From contig RECU01000080.1 in the NCBI GenBank assembly GCA_007693855.1, forward strand, positions 1 to 37,696: a stretch of DNA of 37,696 nt, read 5' to 3'. The stretch's first letter is position 1. Each line of letters starts with the position of its first letter. Positions 2,964-23,839 of the stretch are shown here, piece by piece. Both the position numbers and the translations under genes were made by a program. Source of the DNA: Gammaproteobacteria bacterium (GTDB lineage: Bacteria > Pseudomonadota > Gammaproteobacteria > Steroidobacterales > PWYM01). The notes beneath the pieces were generated by a model, which did no database searches, was not told the DNA's origin, and saw nothing but the letters and a program-made list of their open reading frames with translations.

Positions 2964-3010
2964 GGATAAGGTAGCATGACCAGACCGGCAAGCGAAAGCG
3001 ACGACAGGGC

Positions 3011-3517
3011 CTAAGGCCGACTCTCGACGCCAGCCTCTGCATCACGTTTTGGCGGGACCAGGGATTCTGCCCCAGGTGCACAGATAAACCTGTCCTCATC
3101 GAATTGCAGGACCAGACGACGTTGCTCGCGCAAGGCGGTGAGCGTGGCTTCATCCACCGCGAACCGTTGCAGCAGTTCCTCGTCGCGCACCGGTGGCACG
3201 GGCCGCCGTCGGTCCAGGCCACCGAAGCGGGCCAGGTTGTAGGCCGACCAGGCCACGATGACCACGGCGCTCAACACTACCACGCCGGCATAGCCGAGCA
3301 GGGTCAGCAGGTGGCTGCGGTCCTCTGGCCCGAGCAGATAGCGCGAAAACAGATCGACGCCGAACCACCAGGCCGCCAGGCTGATCAGGGGCAGGAACAG
3401 ATACAGCCAGACCACCCAGGCCAGCACCGTGAGCAGTGAATACAAGGTCCGTTGCCCCACCGGTTGCAGATCAGGCCGGTAGAGAATCTCGGGATGGCGC
3501 ACGGGCTGGCGGCTCAT
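3011..3517 (-). CDS. pgaD: PgaD, inner-membrane accessory subunit of PNAG synthase
   Basis: This is a 168-residue protein with two hydrophobic segments, around residues 24-52 (LLTVLAWVVWLYLFLPLISL) and 70-92 (LTLLGYAGVVVLSAVVIVAW), and a soluble C terminus. Position as the last gene after pgaC, size and two-helix topology match PgaD, the small partner of the glycosyltransferase PgaC. In Escherichia coli the PgaC-PgaD contact is stabilised by cyclic-di-GMP. The N-terminal segment ILYRPDLQP is a typical PgaD opening. The start overlaps the pgaC stop in ATGA. Sequence conservation in this family is low, so the call rests partly on context. Confidence 0.88.
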   Translation of the reverse strand: MSRQPVRHPEILYRPDLQPVGQRTLYSLLTVLAWVVWLYLFLPLISLAAWWFGVDLFSRYLLGPEDRSHLLTLLGYAGVVVLSAVVIVAWSAYNLARFGGLDRRRPVPPVRDEELLQRFAVDEATLTALREQRRLVLQFDEDRFICAPGAESLVPPKRDAEAGVESRP

Positions 3518-6857: not shown

Positions 6858-9403
6858 CAGAAATACCCCTCCACCGCGAGCAGCGCATCCCACTGGCGCT
6901 CGCGGTTGCCGTCGTACACGCGGCTCGCTAGCCCCGCGCCATAGCGCAGGCGCCAGCTGCGCCCAAGCTGCCAGAGGTGCTCATAGCGCAGCGCGCCGGT
7001 GGCCGCAGTGCCGAAGTCCTGCTGCCAGTAGCCCCCGCCGGTCGCCGCGAAACGCTGCGTGAACGACCAGTCGTAGCTGCGCCAGGTGAGCCAGTCGTGC
7101 TGCACGCCGTAGCCGAGCGCCGCGTCTCGCCGGGGATTGAAGTAGAGCCCCCCCTCCTGGCTCGCGCGCGAGAGATAGAGCTCCGCGCGGCCGGAGGTGA
7201 TGTGGTGGGCATCGGCGCGCAGCCGGTGATTCGAGGCCAGCAGCAGCGACAGGCGAGTGTTGCCGTCCGAGAGCGCCAGCCGGCCGAGACTTGCCCGCGC
7301 GTCGAGCGACTCGTGGGCCTGCCAGCGCCCCGCCGCCTCCGCCTTGCGCCCGCGCAGGCGCTCGGCGCGGGGGCGAAGGGGGGCGTCGAGCGAGAAGGTC
7401 TCGAGACGCGTGGCGAAGCTCCAGTGGTCGCCGAGGTGCCAGTCGAAACCACCAGTGATGCCCGCTTCCGTCTCGCCGGTGAGGCTGCCGCTGACTTCGA
7501 CGTAGGCATGGCGGCGCTGCCGGCGCCAGTCGAGGCCTGCCCCTGCGCGGCGCCAGGCCTGCTCGCCTTCGGGGAACCGCGCCGAGGCCCAGTCCTGGAA
7601 CGCATAGGGCTGCCAGTGCGTGGCCACGTAGGGGGCGGACACGCGGCTGCGCAGGCGCCGCTCGCGCGAGCCGAAGTCGGCGAAGCCATCGCTGTCGCCA
7701 TAGCCGGCCTCGCTGGCCAGCCACCAGCGCTGACGATCCTCCCAGCGGCGCATCTCGCGGGCGACCGCGGGATGTTCGGGGAACGCTTCGGCCAACGCGG
7801 TGAAGTGGCTGTCCGCCGCAGCGAAACGTTCCAGCGCGGCGAGCGTGACCGCCTGCTCGATGCGTCCGCCCAGCACCTCGGGCTCGTAGGCCTGGGCGAG
7901 CTCGATCTCGGCCAGTGCGCGGTTCGGCCAGCCTCGCCAGCGATAGACGGTGGCGAGCTCGCGGCGCACCTGGGCGCTGGCAGGCGCATCCACGACCAGT
8001 GCCTCGAGGCGCGCTTGAGCCTCGGCCGGCTGATTGGCGTAGGCGCGCAGCATCGCCGCCACCAGGTCGATGCGCAGGCGTTCCCAATTCGGGGCACGAC
8101 GGGCCGAGGCGTCATCTTCAAGCCACGGCGAACGCGCAACGGCCATGCGGTCGATGAGTCTGATCGCCTCGGCATGGCGCTCGGCTTCGACCAGGGCGTA
8201 GACCAGGCCGAGTTCGGCTTCCAGCAGCGTGGGTTCTTCCTCGAGCACCCGGCGGTACAGGGCGATGGCCGTGTGCGGCTGGCGGGTGGCGAGGTAGGCG
8301 TCGGCGGCAGCGTGGTGGACATACGCCGGGATGGCGGGCGCGATATCGACGGGGATGTCTTGCGGCCCGCCAGCCGACACGTCACGCTCTGTAGGCTCCT
8401 CCGTCGCAAACAGGCCTGCGTAGGCGACGATGACCTCATCCATGCGCCCATCGACGCGCAACGCGGCGATGCGCTCGAAGCGTGCGCGGCGGACCAGCGG
8501 TGGGTCGATGTCATGGCGGGCTGGCGCTTCGGTCTCGTTTGCGGCTGCGACGTCGGCTTTGGCCTCGGCTTCGACCTCGGCCAGCAGGGTCAAGGCCCGG
8601 TCGATCTCGGCCCGGCGCGCGGCGCTGCCTTCCTCCGCCAGGGCGGCCCAGCGGATGTGCTGGGCGGCTCGATCCAGCTGCAGGCGCTGGCGCTCGGCCG
8701 GGTCGAGCAGCGCGGGGCGGGAATCGGACGAACGCTGGGCCTGCTCCGGCGCGCCCAGGTCAGCCAGTGCGAGCACTTGCTGGCGGCGCGCCTCGCGATG
8801 GTCCGGGGCCAGGCGAAGGGCGGCGGAGGCTGCAGCAAGTGCCCCACTCGGGTCGCCCAGGTTCCGCAGGACATACGCGTGGGCAGCGGCGGCTTCGACA
8901 CTGTCGGGACTGCTGCGACGGAGCGCCTGTAAGTGTGCCGCGGCCTCGGCGTTGCGCGCGAGGTCGCTCAGCGCGAGCGCATAGAGCACACCGAGGTCCG
9001 GCGTCCGGGTCTCGCGGTGGCGTTCCGGCGCGAGCAGCCCGGCCGCTGCCTCGGCATCGCCGGCCGCCCGGTGAGCCCGCGCCCAGGCCAGCAGGGCATA
9101 GTCAGGCACCTCGCGGGCGTCGAGGGCTTCAGCCGCGGCCACCGCCTCGTTGGGCCGTCCGGCCCACTCGAGCACGGTCACCAGGTCGGCCAGGGTCGCG
9201 ACATCACCGGGCGTGTCCTCTGCCAGGGCCCGCAGGCGCGCGACAGCGGCGTCGAACTGACCGTCGCGCGCCAGCATCACGGCAGCCTCCCGATCGAGGG
9301 GCGCATGGGCGAAGGGCGACGCGGCATGGCCTGTGATCGGGACGGCGGTCAGCAGGAGGGCGGCGAGAACGGCGACAGGCAAGGCGATGATCCGTGATGG
9401 CAT
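6857..9403 (-). CDS. pgaA: PgaA, outer-membrane PNAG export porin with TPR domain
   Basis: The protein has 848 residues. A signal peptide (MPSRIIALPVAVLAALLL, cleavage near GHA-A) is followed by a long alpha-helical tetratricopeptide superhelix. A beta-barrel runs from about residue 553 (RWWLASEAGYGDSDGFADFG) to a terminal aromatic GYF, the usual beta-barrel assembly signal. The TPR part binds PgaB or the polymer in the periplasm, and the barrel exports PNAG. The ATG at 9403 is the only start compatible with the signal peptide; a longer in-frame extension antisense to the neighbouring peptidase gene is spurious. There is no good Shine-Dalgarno, only GAAAAAA before the ATG. This is the first gene of pgaABCD. 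Confidence 0.93.
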   Translation of the reverse strand: MPSRIIALPVAVLAALLLTAVPITGHAASPFAHAPLDREAAVMLARDGQFDAAVARLRALAEDTPGDVATLADLVTVLEWAGRPNEAVAAAEALDAREVPDYALLAWARAHRAAGDAEAAAGLLAPERHRETRTPDLGVLYALALSDLARNAEAAAHLQALRRSSPDSVEAAAAHAYVLRNLGDPSGALAAASAALRLAPDHREARRQQVLALADLGAPEQAQRSSDSRPALLDPAERQRLQLDRAAQHIRWAALAEEGSAARRAEIDRALTLLAEVEAEAKADVAAANETEAPARHDIDPPLVRRARFERIAALRVDGRMDEVIVAYAGLFATEEPTERDVSAGGPQDIPVDIAPAIPAYVHHAAADAYLATRQPHTAIALYRRVLEEEPTLLEAELGLVYALVEAERHAEAIRLIDRMAVARSPWLEDDASARRAPNWERLRIDLVAAMLRAYANQPAEAQARLEALVVDAPASAQVRRELATVYRWRGWPNRALAEIELAQAYEPEVLGGRIEQAVTLAALERFAAADSHFTALAEAFPEHPAVAREMRRWEDRQRWWLASEAGYGDSDGFADFGSRERRLRSRVSAPYVATHWQPYAFQDWASARFPEGEQAWRRAGAGLDWRRQRRHAYVEVSGSLTGETEAGITGGFDWHLGDHWSFATRLETFSLDAPLRPRAERLRGRKAEAAGRWQAHESLDARASLGRLALSDGNTRLSLLLASNHRLRADAHHITSGRAELYLSRASQEGGLYFNPRRDAALGYGVQHDWLTWRSYDWSFTQRFAATGGGYWQQDFGTAATGALRYEHLWQLGRSWRLRYGAGLASRVYDGNRERQWDALLAVEGYF

Positions 9404-19795: not shown

Positions 19796-20194
19796 TCATT
19801 TCTCCATGACCAGAAACTGACAGGTCGGTCCCGGTGCTCGCATCAGCCTGCCATCCAGGGTCGCCAGCCTGAGGTCGAGGCGCTCCGCGATGGCGACATA
19901 CCAGGCGTCGTAGCTGCTCAGATTTGCACGCAGCTGCCAGACGCGCTCGGCAAACGGCGTAAAGGGCAGCAGCCGCAGTCCGAAGCGGTTGAGATCGCGT
20001 GCCGCCTCAGTGGCCTCCAGCTGTTCAAGCCTGCCGGCCTGGACCAGTCGGCGCAGCACGTTGGTGGCCTCGACCAGCACCAGATGCGGGGCGTACAGCG
20101 GCTGTTGGGTGATCACCTCGATCGCCCAGGCGCCGGGCTGACCGGCGTCTACGCTGGCGGCGACCAGTACCGAGGCGTCGACAACCAGAGTCAC
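19796..20194 (-). CDS. vapC: PIN-domain toxin (pair 3)
   Basis: This 132-residue PIN ribonuclease has MTLVVDASVLVAASVD with the first Asp, LVLVEATNVLRRLVQAGRL with the second acidic residue, SSYDAWYVAIAERLDLRLATLDGRL with the remaining active-site positions, and a short C-terminal tail. The DASVLV and YDAWYVALAE-type motifs place it with VapC toxins of the FitB-like group. Its GTG start overlaps the antitoxin stop in GTGA. The 167 bp between this gene and the aldehyde dehydrogenase start carry no gene. Confidence 0.9.
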   Translation of the reverse strand: MTLVVDASVLVAASVDAGQPGAWAIEVITQQPLYAPHLVLVEATNVLRRLVQAGRLEQLEATEAARDLNRFGLRLLPFTPFAERVWQLRANLSSYDAWYVAIAERLDLRLATLDGRLMRAPGPTCQFLVMEK

Positions 20195-20469
20195 CGGCTG
20201 ACGCGTCGGCCTCGGGGCGGAGGCAGGGCCTCGCCACGACGATCCGCGTCGCGGTGATCAAGGATCTCGTCGACGGAGAGCCTGGTGCCGGTCAGCGCCT
20301 TGCGCTCGGCAATACGTTCAAGCACCTCGTCCAACGGGGGCTCAGCTGCAAGCCGCTCGAGTTCCTGCCGGAGATACTCCTGCATCGACTTGCCTTGCAG
20401 GGCGGCCCGCGCGGCGAGTTCGTCCCGAACGACAGTCGGCACGTTGCGGATGGTGATCTGTATACGCAC
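20191..20469 (-). CDS. vapB: FitA/VapB-like ribbon-helix-helix antitoxin (pair 3)
   Basis: This is a 92-residue antitoxin. RIQITIRNVPTVVRDELAAR is the beta strand and first helix of a ribbon-helix-helix DNA-binding domain, and ALQGKSMQEYLRQELERLA the second helix. The C-terminal tail is polar and basic (PPPRGRRVSR) and should wrap the toxin. The GTG at 20469 is taken as start because family members usually begin at this point; GTG at 20487 would add six residues. Neither has a clear ribosome site. A perfect -35 hexamer, TTGACA, lies just upstream on the minus strand without an obvious -10. Confidence 0.84.
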   Translation of the reverse strand: MRIQITIRNVPTVVRDELAARAALQGKSMQEYLRQELERLAAEPPLDEVLERIAERKALTGTRLSVDEILDHRDADRRGEALPPPRGRRVSR

Positions 20470-20550
20470 GAAATCAGTTTGCAGCACCTGCTGTCAAAAT
20501 GAAAGCATCTAGACGCCCTCGACGCCAGCAGAACCCCTGCTCGGCCGCCG

Positions 20551-22347
20551 CTAGAACGCCGCCTCCGACATCTCCAGCGCCGTGTCGTCCAGCCGTGCGA
20601 GCAGCTGCAGCCGCTCGCGCGCCTTCGGCAGTTCATAGATGAAGAAAAACCGGCAGGCGGCGAGCTTGCCGGCGTAAAAGTCCTGGTCGGCCTCGCCCGC
20701 ATCGGCCTGGGCGTGCAGCGCCACCAGCGCCTGGCGCAGCCACAACCAGGCCACGACCACATGGCCGAACGCATCGAGATACAGCGTCGCATTGGCCAGG
20801 CCCAGCTCCGGGTGGCGCCCGGTGGCCTCCACCAGCCGCCGGGTGACCTCGGTAAGCTCGTGGCAGGTCTCGCGCAGCACCGCCGCCTGCGCCGAGAGCT
20901 GCACGCTGGTCTCGGCCTCGGCAATGGTCTCCTGCACCCGCGCGGACAACAGCGCCATGGCCCGACCGCCGTGCATCGACACCTTGCGCCCGAGCAGGTC
21001 GAGGCCCTGGATGCCGTGGGTGCCTTCGTGGATGGCATTCAGGCGGTTGTCGCGATACAGCCGCTCGACCGGATAGTCGCGCGTATAGCCGTAGCCGCCG
21101 AGCACCTGGATGGCGAGCTTGTTGGCCTCGAGACAGAACTCCGAGGGCCACGACTTGGCCACCGGCGTCAGCAGTTCCAGCAGCAGGTGCAGGGCGTCGC
21201 GCTCGCCGGCCTCGCGACAGGTGTGCAGCTCATCGAGCAGCCGCGAGCAGTACAGCACCAGTGCAAGCGCCCCTTCCACGTAGGCTTTCTGCGTCAGCAG
21301 CATGCGGCGCACATCGGCGTGGCGGATGATCGGCACCATGGGGCTGGTCGGGTCGCGGTCGGTGAGCGGGCGGCCCTGGGGGCGGCCGCGTGCATACTCC
21401 AGCGCATGCAGGTAGCCCGCGTAGCCGAGCATGGTCGCGCCCAGGCCGACGCCGACGCGCGCCTCGTTCATCATCTGGAACATGTACTTCAGGCCCTGGT
21501 GGGGCTCGCCCAGCAGCCAGCCGCGGCAATCGCCATGCTCACCGAGACTGAGCAGCGTGTTCACCGTGCCGCGATAGCCCATCTTGTGGTTGATCCCGGC
21601 CAGGCTGATGTCGTTACGCGCACCCGGGCTGCCGTCAGCCTCGACGCGGATCCGCGGCACCAGGAACAGCGAGATCCCCTTCACGCCCGGCGGCCCGCCG
21701 GGAATCTTCGCCAGCACCATATGCACGATGTTCTCGGCGAGCTCGTGGTCGCCGCCGGAGATCCACATCTTGCTGCCGGTGAGCCGGTAATAGCCCTCGT
21801 CGGTCGGCTCGGCACGGGTGCGGATGTCGGCCAGCGAGGAGCCGGCCTGCGGCTCGGACAGACACATCGTGCCGAAGTAGCGGCCCTCGAGCATCGGGCG
21901 GAGATAGCGTGCCTTCAGCGCCTCGCTGCCGAAGGTCTTGAGCAGGTTGGCCGCACCCACCGTCAGCAGCGGATAGCCCGCCGTGCCGATATTGGCCGAG
22001 GAGAACAGCGCGCCACAGGCCTGGTGGATCAGCCAGGGCAGCTGCATGCCACCGTCCTCGGCATCGAAGGGCACGGCCATGAAGCCGCCCTCGCGCAGCG
22101 CATCGAGCGCCTCGCGAACCTCCGGGAGGATGCGCACCTGCCCGTCGACGAACTCGGGCTCCTCGGCATCGACGGCAGCGGCGTGTGGCAGGAATTTCTC
22201 GGCGGCGATCGTCAGCGCCGCATCGATCACCGCGTCGAAGGTCGCCCGGTCATGCTCGGCGAAGCGCGGTCTGCGGCACAGGTCCTCGGCGTCGAGCAGT
22301 TCGTAGAGCAGGAAATCGAGGTCGCGGCGGTTGATGATCGGATGCAC
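20551..22347 (-). CDS. Acyl-CoA dehydrogenase, long form with C-terminal extension
   Basis: This 598-residue flavoenzyme is longer than the usual 380 because of a C-terminal domain of about 130 residues. That length and the opening [18 protein letters not shown] match the DmdC/FadE-like group, in which 3-methylmercaptopropionyl-CoA dehydrogenase and other acyl-CoA dehydrogenases fall. Visible motifs are [19 protein letters not shown] and [11 protein letters not shown] in the FAD domain, and the catalytic-glutamate region [20 protein letters not shown]. The substrate is not determined by these motifs. The start codon is GTG with only a weak ribosome site. No linked CoA ligase or hydratase is present, so it may act alone in fatty or short-branched acyl oxidation. 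Confidence 0.92.
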
Positions 22348-22409
22348 GGCGGGTCTCGCTGGACGAAGAAGCCTGCCGGCATTCTCGCATGTCAGCCATC
22401 GCCAGGGGT

Positions 22410-22474
22410 CTATGGCCGGCGGTAGACCTCGCGGCGATGGCCGAGGCCTTGATCAGAAGCCTATAGCTTCCCAC
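22410..22474 (-). pseudogene. RelE/ParE-type toxin remnant with internal deletion
   Basis: A GTG start overlapping the antitoxin end by 14 bp opens the typical RelE N terminus VGSYRLLIKASA. Within a few codons, in another frame, the sequence reads GLGHRREVYRRP followed by TAG, which is the typical C terminus of the same toxin family (GHRxEVYR). The roughly 60 middle codons are gone, and the junction lies around AAGGCCTCGG. Starting in the first frame, translation misses the toxin tail. This is therefore a deletion derivative, not a gene. Confidence 0.72.
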
Positions 22475-22694
22475 TGCGCTTGAGGTCCTTCACGACAGCC
22501 TCGAACGACAGCTCCGGCTCATCGCGACGTTCTTGGAACGCGAGAAGGTCAGCGGCGTCCTCCCCCAGGCTCAGACGCACGGCTTCATTGACCAGGTCGG
22601 ACATCGACCGGTCAGTCTCCGCAGCCTTCAACCGCAAAGCGCGATGCAATGCCGGATCGAAGTACACCGTGGCACGTTTCTGAGAGGGTTCCAT
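22461..22694 (-). CDS. RelB-like ribbon-helix-helix antitoxin left without its toxin
   Basis: This is a 77-residue protein. KRATVYFDPALHRALRLKAA is a ribbon-helix-helix strand and helix, and DRSMSDLVNEAVRLSLGED the second helix. The C-terminal FEAVVKDLKRSGKL is the usual toxin-binding tail of RelB-like antitoxins. AAGGTG lies six bases before the ATG at 22694; a longer frame from 22730 is less likely. The toxin gene that should follow is reduced to a remnant (22410-22474). The antitoxin itself looks intact and could act as an orphan regulator or neutralise related toxins. Confidence 0.83.
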   Translation of the reverse strand: MEPSQKRATVYFDPALHRALRLKAAETDRSMSDLVNEAVRLSLGEDAADLLAFQERRDEPELSFEAVVKDLKRSGKL

Positions 22695-22726
22695 GGAGAG
22701 CACCTTAGCGCTTTGACAACAAAGCA

Positions 22727-23839
22727 TCAAAGCGCCCGCGACGGCGACTGGTACTCGTAGCCCAGCGCCTCGGCCACCGCCGAGCAGGTGACCCGGCCGC
22801 GGTGGATATTCAGCCCGGCCAGCAGGTTGGGATCGTGGGTCAGCGCGCCGCGCACGCCGCGCTCGGCCAGCGCGAGCACGAACGGCAGCGTGGCGTTGTT
22901 CAGCGCGAAGGTCGAAGTGCGCGGTACGGCACCGGGCATGTTGGCCACGCAGTAATGCACCACCTCATCGACCAGATAGGTCGGGTCGGAATGCGTGGTC
23001 GGGCGGCTGGTCTCGAAGCAGCCGCCCTGGTCGATCGCCACATCCACCACCACCGAGCCCGGGCGCATCGCGGCGATCATTTCGCGGGTGACCAGCTTCG
23101 GCGCCGAGGCCCCCGGAATCAGCACCGCGCCGATGACCAGGTCGGCACCGGTCACGTAGCGCTCCAGCGAGTCGACCGTGGAGTAGATCGTGTTCAGCCG
23201 CCCGCCGAACTGGAAGTCGAGCTCCTGCAGCCGCTTGAGCGAGCGGTCGAGCACCGTCACGTTGGCCTCCATGCCCATGGCCATGCGGATGGCATTGGTG
23301 CCGACCACGCCGCCGCCGATCACCACCACCCGGGCCGCGGCCACGCCCGGCACGCCGCCGAGCAGCACGCCGGCACCGCCGGCCTCCTTCTCCAGGCAAT
23401 GCGCCCCGGCCTGCACGGCCATGCGCCCCGCCACCTCGCTCATCGGCGCGAGCAGCGGCAGGCTGCCGCCCGGCCCGGTGACCGTCTCGTAGGCGATGGC
23501 GGTGACGCCGGACTCGACCAGCAGTCGCGTCTGTTCCGGATCCGGCGCCAGATGCAGGTAGGTGAACAGCACCTGGCCTTCGCGCAGCTGCCGGCACTCG
23601 TCGGGCTGCGGCTCCTTCACCTTCACCACCAGCTCGGCGCGGGCGAACACCTCGGCGGCATCGGCGGCGATGCCTGCGCCGGCCCGCTGGTAGTCCTCGT
23701 CGCGCATGCCGATGCCCAGCCCGGCGCCGGTCTCGATCAGCACCTCGTGGCCGCGCTCGCACAGCTCACGCACGCTTGCCGGGATCAGGCCGACGCGGTA
23801 TTCATGGTTCTTGATTTCGCGGGGCACACCGATCTTCAT
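22727..23839 (-). CDS. ald: Alanine dehydrogenase
   Basis: The protein has 370 residues, full length. The opening [18 protein letters not shown] is the family signature and carries the substrate-binding Arg. The catalytic lysine region is [10 protein letters not shown] and the catalytic histidine is in [32 protein letters not shown] is the NAD-binding glycine motif, and [19 protein letters not shown] closes the active site. It converts L-alanine to pyruvate and ammonia with NAD, or the reverse, in the cytoplasm. GGAG lies nine bases upstream of the ATG. It is divergent from the hydrolase at 23983, with a 143-bp gap and no linked Lrp regulator. Confidence 0.97.

Follow-up and report, generated by a model that had tools for sequence, protein, structure and literature searches.

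Orphan antitoxins, whose toxin partner is missing, are reported as abundant in Klebsiella pneumoniae (2253 occurrences in 105 of 233 antitoxin groups; PMC7192599) and in Escherichia coli as well (PMC10790755); some of them keep toxin context, and both decay and anti-addiction are proposed for them in these two reports. Chromosomal pair decay and anti-addiction are reviewed in PMC7167474. Pairs of a ribbon-helix-helix (RHH) antitoxin with a RelE toxin are given as one of the three commonest pairings (PMC2701414), and RelBE of E. coli is such a pair, with an RHH antitoxin, a RelE-fold toxin and an operator that overlaps the promoter (PMC3507626, PMC2812701); there the repressor is described as overlapping the -10 box, with RelE acting as co-repressor (PMC2812701).

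The locus described here is an ordinary orphan antitoxin, well resolved. It lies in a window of 37,696 nucleotides (the whole stretch of DNA that was analysed) and, like the orphans of K. pneumoniae and E. coli, it lacks its toxin partner; by comparison with these, it comes with a closely mapped lesion, a known empty site and a traced operator. The decay of the chromosomal ccd O157 pair in E. coli, with pair loss and inactive toxins, was reportedly described by Mine and colleagues in 2009. That case concerns another toxin fold and many strains of one species, whereas ours combines one genome with a family-wide survey. The window family shares with RelBE the RHH antitoxin, the RelE-fold toxin and the overlap of operator and promoter, but its operator consensus shows an 8-bp repeat (ACGTTATA) instead of the [A/T]TGT[A/C]A hexads of RelBE, and the window antitoxin resembles RelB only weakly (16.4 bits for NF048017, whose cut-off is 50). 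Among the papers listed by a narrow search of the open-licence literature, none was to the point on the fate of the operator after toxin loss, or on toxin deletion with microhomology.

We hold with high confidence that a type II pair was inserted at the end of ald, that one deletion struck its toxin, and that the orphan antitoxin is a relic on its way out.

Insertion of the pair at the end of ald

The gene order on the minus strand, read directly from the sequence, is ald, a promoter-operator region, the antitoxin, a 65-nt toxin remnant and an acyl-CoA dehydrogenase-like gene (ACAD). We take the upstream neighbour (22727..23839, minus strand) to be alanine dehydrogenase by protein likeness, and the downstream neighbour (20551..22347, minus strand) to be acyl-CoA dehydrogenase-like by the look of its protein. 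In the sister genome G001, whose ald is 96% identical to that of the window, the junction between the two genes is empty: the ends of the BLAST alignment leave 339 unaligned bp in the window (22392..22730, minus strand) against 34 in G001. The inserted stretch replaces the last seven codons of ald, which ends in SPSRALGIGVAEV in G001 and in SPSRAL in the window, and the new stop codon TGA lies inside the incoming operator. Because the site is empty in the sister genome, the pair arrived by insertion: in the window lineage, a type II pair of RHH antitoxin and RelE/ParE-fold toxin entered ald at its 3' end; it could already have been broken on arrival. The junction is short in G002 too, another gene follows ald in G003, and only 71 residues of ald were matched in G004, where nothing downstream came into view; a search of four congeners at E 1e-12 found no family antitoxin. 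The broken pair at ald is carried by one genome among those compared. Neither the empty site in the sister genome nor the retained operator had been picked up by the first-pass annotation.

A second toxin-antitoxin pair lies on the far side of the same ACAD gene (19796-20487, minus strand), made up of a FitA/VapB-like antitoxin (20191..20487) and a PIN toxin (19796..20194). At its place G001 does not align and carries a 148-aa glycine-rich, lipoprotein-like ORF. One gene flanked by two pairs, both missing there in the sister genome, suggests that this is a place where such pairs are acquired.

The toxin remnant and its intact relatives

An antitoxin-based genome scan yielded 20 relatives, 51-84% identical to the window antitoxin (the 84% over 38 residues only), and in 16 of them a full toxin of 85-89 aa begins in the same position, 11 nt upstream of the end of the antitoxin match. 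In the remaining four, the toxin is frameshifted (L018), absent (L015), degenerate (L022) or ends with the contig (L027). The ancestral arrangement is one of small adjacent genes, antitoxin first and overlapping, and the offset in the window is that of the 16 relatives. The three full toxins that were scanned match PF05016 (ParE_toxin, E 1e-9 to 1.7e-12, above the cut-off) and score 19.0-25.7 bits against TIGR02385 (RelE_StbE), below the cut-off of 27.9, while a profile of the 16 toxins retrieves E. coli RelE chains (E 1.8e-9 to 4.7e-9) and their relatives from the solved structures. Three residues, R62, R82 and Y86, are invariant in the 16 toxins and align with R61, R81 and Y87 of RelE chain 4v7k; we take R61 to be a catalytic residue of RelE. 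R81 is described as an active-site residue and Tyr87 as critical (PMC3507626), and ParE toxins are said to have the same fold without the catalytic residues (PMC11980606). Judged by these sequence and profile comparisons, the ancestral locus is a type II pair of an RHH antitoxin and a RelE/ParE-fold toxin.

Of this toxin the window retains 65 nt (22410..22474, minus strand). The remnant begins with a GTG at 22474 that overlaps the antitoxin end, and consists of the first 12 codons (GTG GGA AGC TAT AGG CTT CTG ATC AAG GCC TCG GCC) followed, in another frame, by the last codons and the old stop (CTC GGC CAT CGC CGC GAG GTC TAC CGC CGG CCA TAG, the TAG ending at 22410). Translated without a break, the remnant opens a frame of 74 aa that extends into the following gene; we regard this frame as meaningless, and the locus today is without a complete toxin reading frame.

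The two fragments are short, 9-12 residues each, and joined into one peptide of 24 residues they had no Pfam match, as might be expected of a chance resemblance to the toxin. To this explanation we attach a practically negligible probability, and the ranking of the fragments leads us to reject it. When the profile of the 16 toxins was set against the six-frame translation of the window, none of 75,322 twelve-residue places reached the score of the N-terminal fragment with its start read as M; with the start read as V, one of 75,322 did, taken to be the fragment itself. For the C-terminal fragment LGHRREVYR, one of 75,340 places reaches its score. Each fragment is first among about 75,000 places, and its position is exactly that of the conserved offset.

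According to the best breakpoint fits, 13 of the 16 relatives have 199, 202 or 205 bp that the window lacks (205 in the closest relative, L008); among the other three, L011 ties 195 with 202, L012 gives 195, and L021 gives 189 or 192. The 5' end of the deletion falls at toxin nt 27-37 in a best fit for all relatives except L012. Since 199, 202 and 205 all exceed a multiple of three by one, the frame is shifted. The counterpart of RelE R61 went with the lost stretch, and the counterparts of R81 and Tyr87 are still present in the window DNA but out of frame; with the R61-aligned core lost and the C-terminal Arg and Tyr out of frame, no toxin can be made.

These results bear out the first-pass annotation where it described a RelE-type toxin that had lost its middle beside a kept antitoxin: the full toxins of relatives, the breakpoint fits, the PF05016 matches and the RelE structure matches all agree with it, the two termini within 65 bp are read directly at 22474-22410, and both match RelE-type termini, ranking first in the window on the 16-toxin profile. 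The comparison it had proposed with full-toxin relatives, which 16 of 20 turned out to be, mapped the deletion endpoints at about 199-205 bp apart. Its frame shift stands, while its estimate of about 60 missing codons has to be raised to about 67.

A single deletion, probably between 6-bp TCGGCC repeats, would have taken the 199-205 bp or so of the toxin gene; the loss is read by comparison, whereas its route we infer from the junction. There the sequence TCGGCC (22439..22444, minus strand) would be what is left of a repeat that flanked the lost stretch on either side. Among the intact relatives, 6 of 61 carry TCGGCC at the 5' place and 6 of 59 carry it at the 3' place, and no relative has both copies; a run shared by the two places occurs in L077 (8 bp) and L016 (6 bp, TCGGTC). 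The genome of the window is a draft of 114 contigs, and the gap might on this account be an assembly or sequencing artefact in a genome that holds the full toxin. We consider this highly unlikely: a 6-bp repeat should be too short to collapse an assembly at ordinary k-mer size, the family toxin profile had no match elsewhere in the genome, and the same gene shows other lesions in other genomes.

The retained antitoxin and its operator

The antitoxin (22461..22694, minus strand) is an intact RHH reading frame of 77 aa, with its ATG at 22694, its stop ending at 22461 and an AAGG 8 nt ahead of the ATG, in agreement with the earlier description of an intact gene with a good ribosome site. It matches PF20605 (Antitox_RHH, E 7e-8, above the cut-off), is 51-83% identical to the 18 relatives with which it was aligned (alignment A1), and has all 13 columns that are invariant in this alignment, of which it is itself one row. 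The structure model (mean pLDDT 89, pTM 0.56) has helices at residues 14-27, 31-55 and 64-74; of the RHH fold, the helix-helix part is present in this monomer model and the strand is absent from it. RHH strands pair only in the dimer. From about residue 41, the tail resembles those of sister-group antitoxins with an N-terminal half that we take to be Phd/YefM-like. Because it also matches these proteins with a different N-terminal half, the C-terminal tail is probably the toxin-binding part, and whole in the window. Synonymous sites are saturated or undefined in nine of ten pairs compared, and the one dN/dS value, 0.13 between the window and L004, covers the time before toxin loss.

The sister toxin group itself (L097-L100, L103-L106) combines antitoxins having this Phd/YefM-like N-terminal half with the family-like C-terminal tail (tail matches E 4e-6 to 9e-9), apparently through a DNA-binding domain swapped onto a kept toxin-binding tail.

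A matrix built from the 25-bp element that recurs ahead of 68 family antitoxins, that of the window excluded, has a median of 28.1 bits on its training sites and a best score of 0.3 bits or less in one shuffle per upstream region. It ranks a site ahead of the window antitoxin first among 75,344 window places, at 19.6 bits. This putative operator (22706..22730, minus strand; TTGATGCTTTGTTGTCAAAGCGCTA, family consensus TTGACGTTATAACGTTATAACGCTA) fills the spacer between a -35-like TTGATG (22725..22730, four of six consensus matches) and, 17 bp after it, a -10-like TAAGGT (22702..22707, three of six), and a perfect inverted repeat, GCGCTTTGA-10-TCAAAGCGC (22708..22735), spans both the operator and the ald end. 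Across the 61 intact loci the most frequent bases spell TTGACG and, 17 bp on, a TATAAT-like hexamer; the mean TATAAT match is 3.85 of 6 at that spacing against at most 2.16 at six neighbouring spacings, a difference that is partly built in, two of the six bases lying in the trained matrix. The upstream element of the family looks like a sigma-70 promoter with the operator as its spacer. A generic promoter and terminator scan of the window locus returned none, and the window promoter appears weak by consensus, such that expression may be nil. Because the operator-promoter survives in recognisable form, some antitoxin is most likely still made, and would repress its own promoter without the toxin as co-repressor, if RelBE is a guide.

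As the operator-like site lies across the ald stop codon and the RHH domain is intact, the orphan antitoxin could act instead as a local regulator of ald and ACAD transcription through this putative operator. Such a role is very unlikely in our estimate, the insertion being absent from the congeners G001 and G002, the 3' end presumably being a poor site for the control of ald, and no ACAD promoter having been identified.

Somewhat less improbable, though still unlikely, is that the antitoxin is kept to neutralise related toxins brought in by mobile elements. It is intact and has the invariant tail residues of the family, and the family is widespread (32 of 369 class genomes and 27 of 296 order genomes, its own genome counted in each), so that matching toxins exist around; anti-addiction has also been proposed both for orphan antitoxins (PMC7192599, PMC10790755) and for chromosomal pairs (PMC7167474). 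On the other hand, no antitoxin relative was found among the 72,556 plasmid records of PLSDB (protein search at E 1e-5) or in a scan of IMG/VR viral contigs for close relatives, no cognate toxin was found in its own genome, and the locus is carried by a single genome of those compared. Anti-addiction, which the first-pass annotation had raised as a potential role, is possible but idle on these data.

Three candidates elsewhere in the genome were considered and set aside. An intact ParE-type toxin on contig C51 has upstream an ORF that looks by eye like another antitoxin type. The toxin on contig C28 is a RelE/ParE fragment with an inner stop (6987-7118, profile positions 2-44), apparently near a contig end. 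A second antitoxin match, on contig C38, was rejected as a paralogue with a RelE toxin, the ORF after it looking PIN-like by eye.

The order of loss in the family

We surveyed 79 antitoxin loci, which reduce to 72 distinct ones; the antitoxin on C38 (L002), the window found again (L003) and a 32-bp match (L007) were left out beforehand, and the antitoxin places in G400 and G154 have no survey locus, though a toxin match lies beside both. By profile coverage, 61 of the distinct loci are intact pairs, five keep an undamaged antitoxin beside a broken toxin, one is doubtful, three have both genes broken and two lie at contig edges. No uncut locus among the 72 combines an intact toxin with a broken antitoxin. 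Besides the window with its 65-nt remnant, the loci with a broken toxin are L049, where the toxin match ends at about position 32, L050, with a stop at codon 21, L091, with a stub only, and L061 (in G318), the mildest lesion of the set, where a stop at codon 84 replaces the invariant tyrosine and the rest is whole. The doubtful case, L015, is without a toxin, and its antitoxin has no ATG, GTG or TTG start (CTG only) and a stop 8 codons past the family end; in the 66 other antitoxins that the profile classes as intact, the start is ordinary and the stop lies within 6 codons. In L018 (= L042), L022 and L092, where both genes are broken, the order of loss is unreadable. The two loci cut by a contig edge are L027 (= L094) and L093, the latter with a full toxin and an antitoxin cut by the contig start.

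L015 (about 3001-3260) lies in a Dehalococcoidia genome, and directly after its antitoxin frame comes a gene that we take to be methionyl-tRNA synthetase-like.

Because the survey search starts from the antitoxin, we also ran the toxin profile against the 369 genomes of the class set and the 296 of the order set, which partly overlap. An antitoxin match lies beside all of the best 29 class toxin matches (E 1.1e-28 or better) and beside 23 of the best 24 order matches (E 1.1e-27 or better); at the 24th, in G608, a contig end cuts the antitoxin tail. Ten weaker toxin matches out of many (L097-L106) were inspected, and nine of these have another, Phd-like antitoxin upstream. The toxin search alone brought up a further doubly damaged locus, L102 in G320, a toxin whose frame contains an inner stop and whose 723 bp upstream show no antitoxin match.

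Five against zero gives p = 0.06 in a two-sided sign test, or 0.03 with L015 counted, and points toward loss of the toxin before the antitoxin in this family, on small numbers. The first-pass annotation had called this the usual route. The direction agrees, modestly, with the five against zero among 72 loci; in E. coli, orphan toxins are reported to be abundant too (113 of 169 toxin groups; PMC10790755), which disfavours a strict toxin-first rule. The relic in the window would persist because losing the toxin first is presumably harmless and losing the antitoxin first is not.

Operators were also scored with a matrix from the intact loci, each of these left out in turn. Together, the five loci with a broken toxin and L015 score below the 61 intact ones (six loci; rank test, p 4.6e-4, relatedness ignored), and so do all nine damaged loci taken together (p 8e-5, relatedness again ignored). 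A damaged locus has a lower score than its nearest intact relative in eight of nine cases, the exception being the window, with 21.0 against 15.5 for L008, whose toxin is intact; the window score lies inside the intact range, 18% of intact loci being as low or lower. The operators of L061 and of its intact neighbour L063 are weak in both, and in L061 the weakness may reflect lineage rather than decay. The tendency of damaged loci toward weaker operators is a first hint of ordered decay, and a lead only. Such a succession would run from toxin to operator-promoter to antitoxin, the operator-promoter following the toxin because tight binding needs the toxin as co-repressor; the window would stand just past the first step, and its orphan antitoxin may meanwhile protect against homologous toxins. 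We offer this succession tentatively, as a rather unlikely extension of the relic reading.

That the toxin has to be lost before the antitoxin is not a new idea, but this family lets the order be counted and so makes the idea testable with numbers. Within this family, the window represents one closely mapped step of toxin-antitoxin loss, with its insertion site, its deletion ends and its retained operator.
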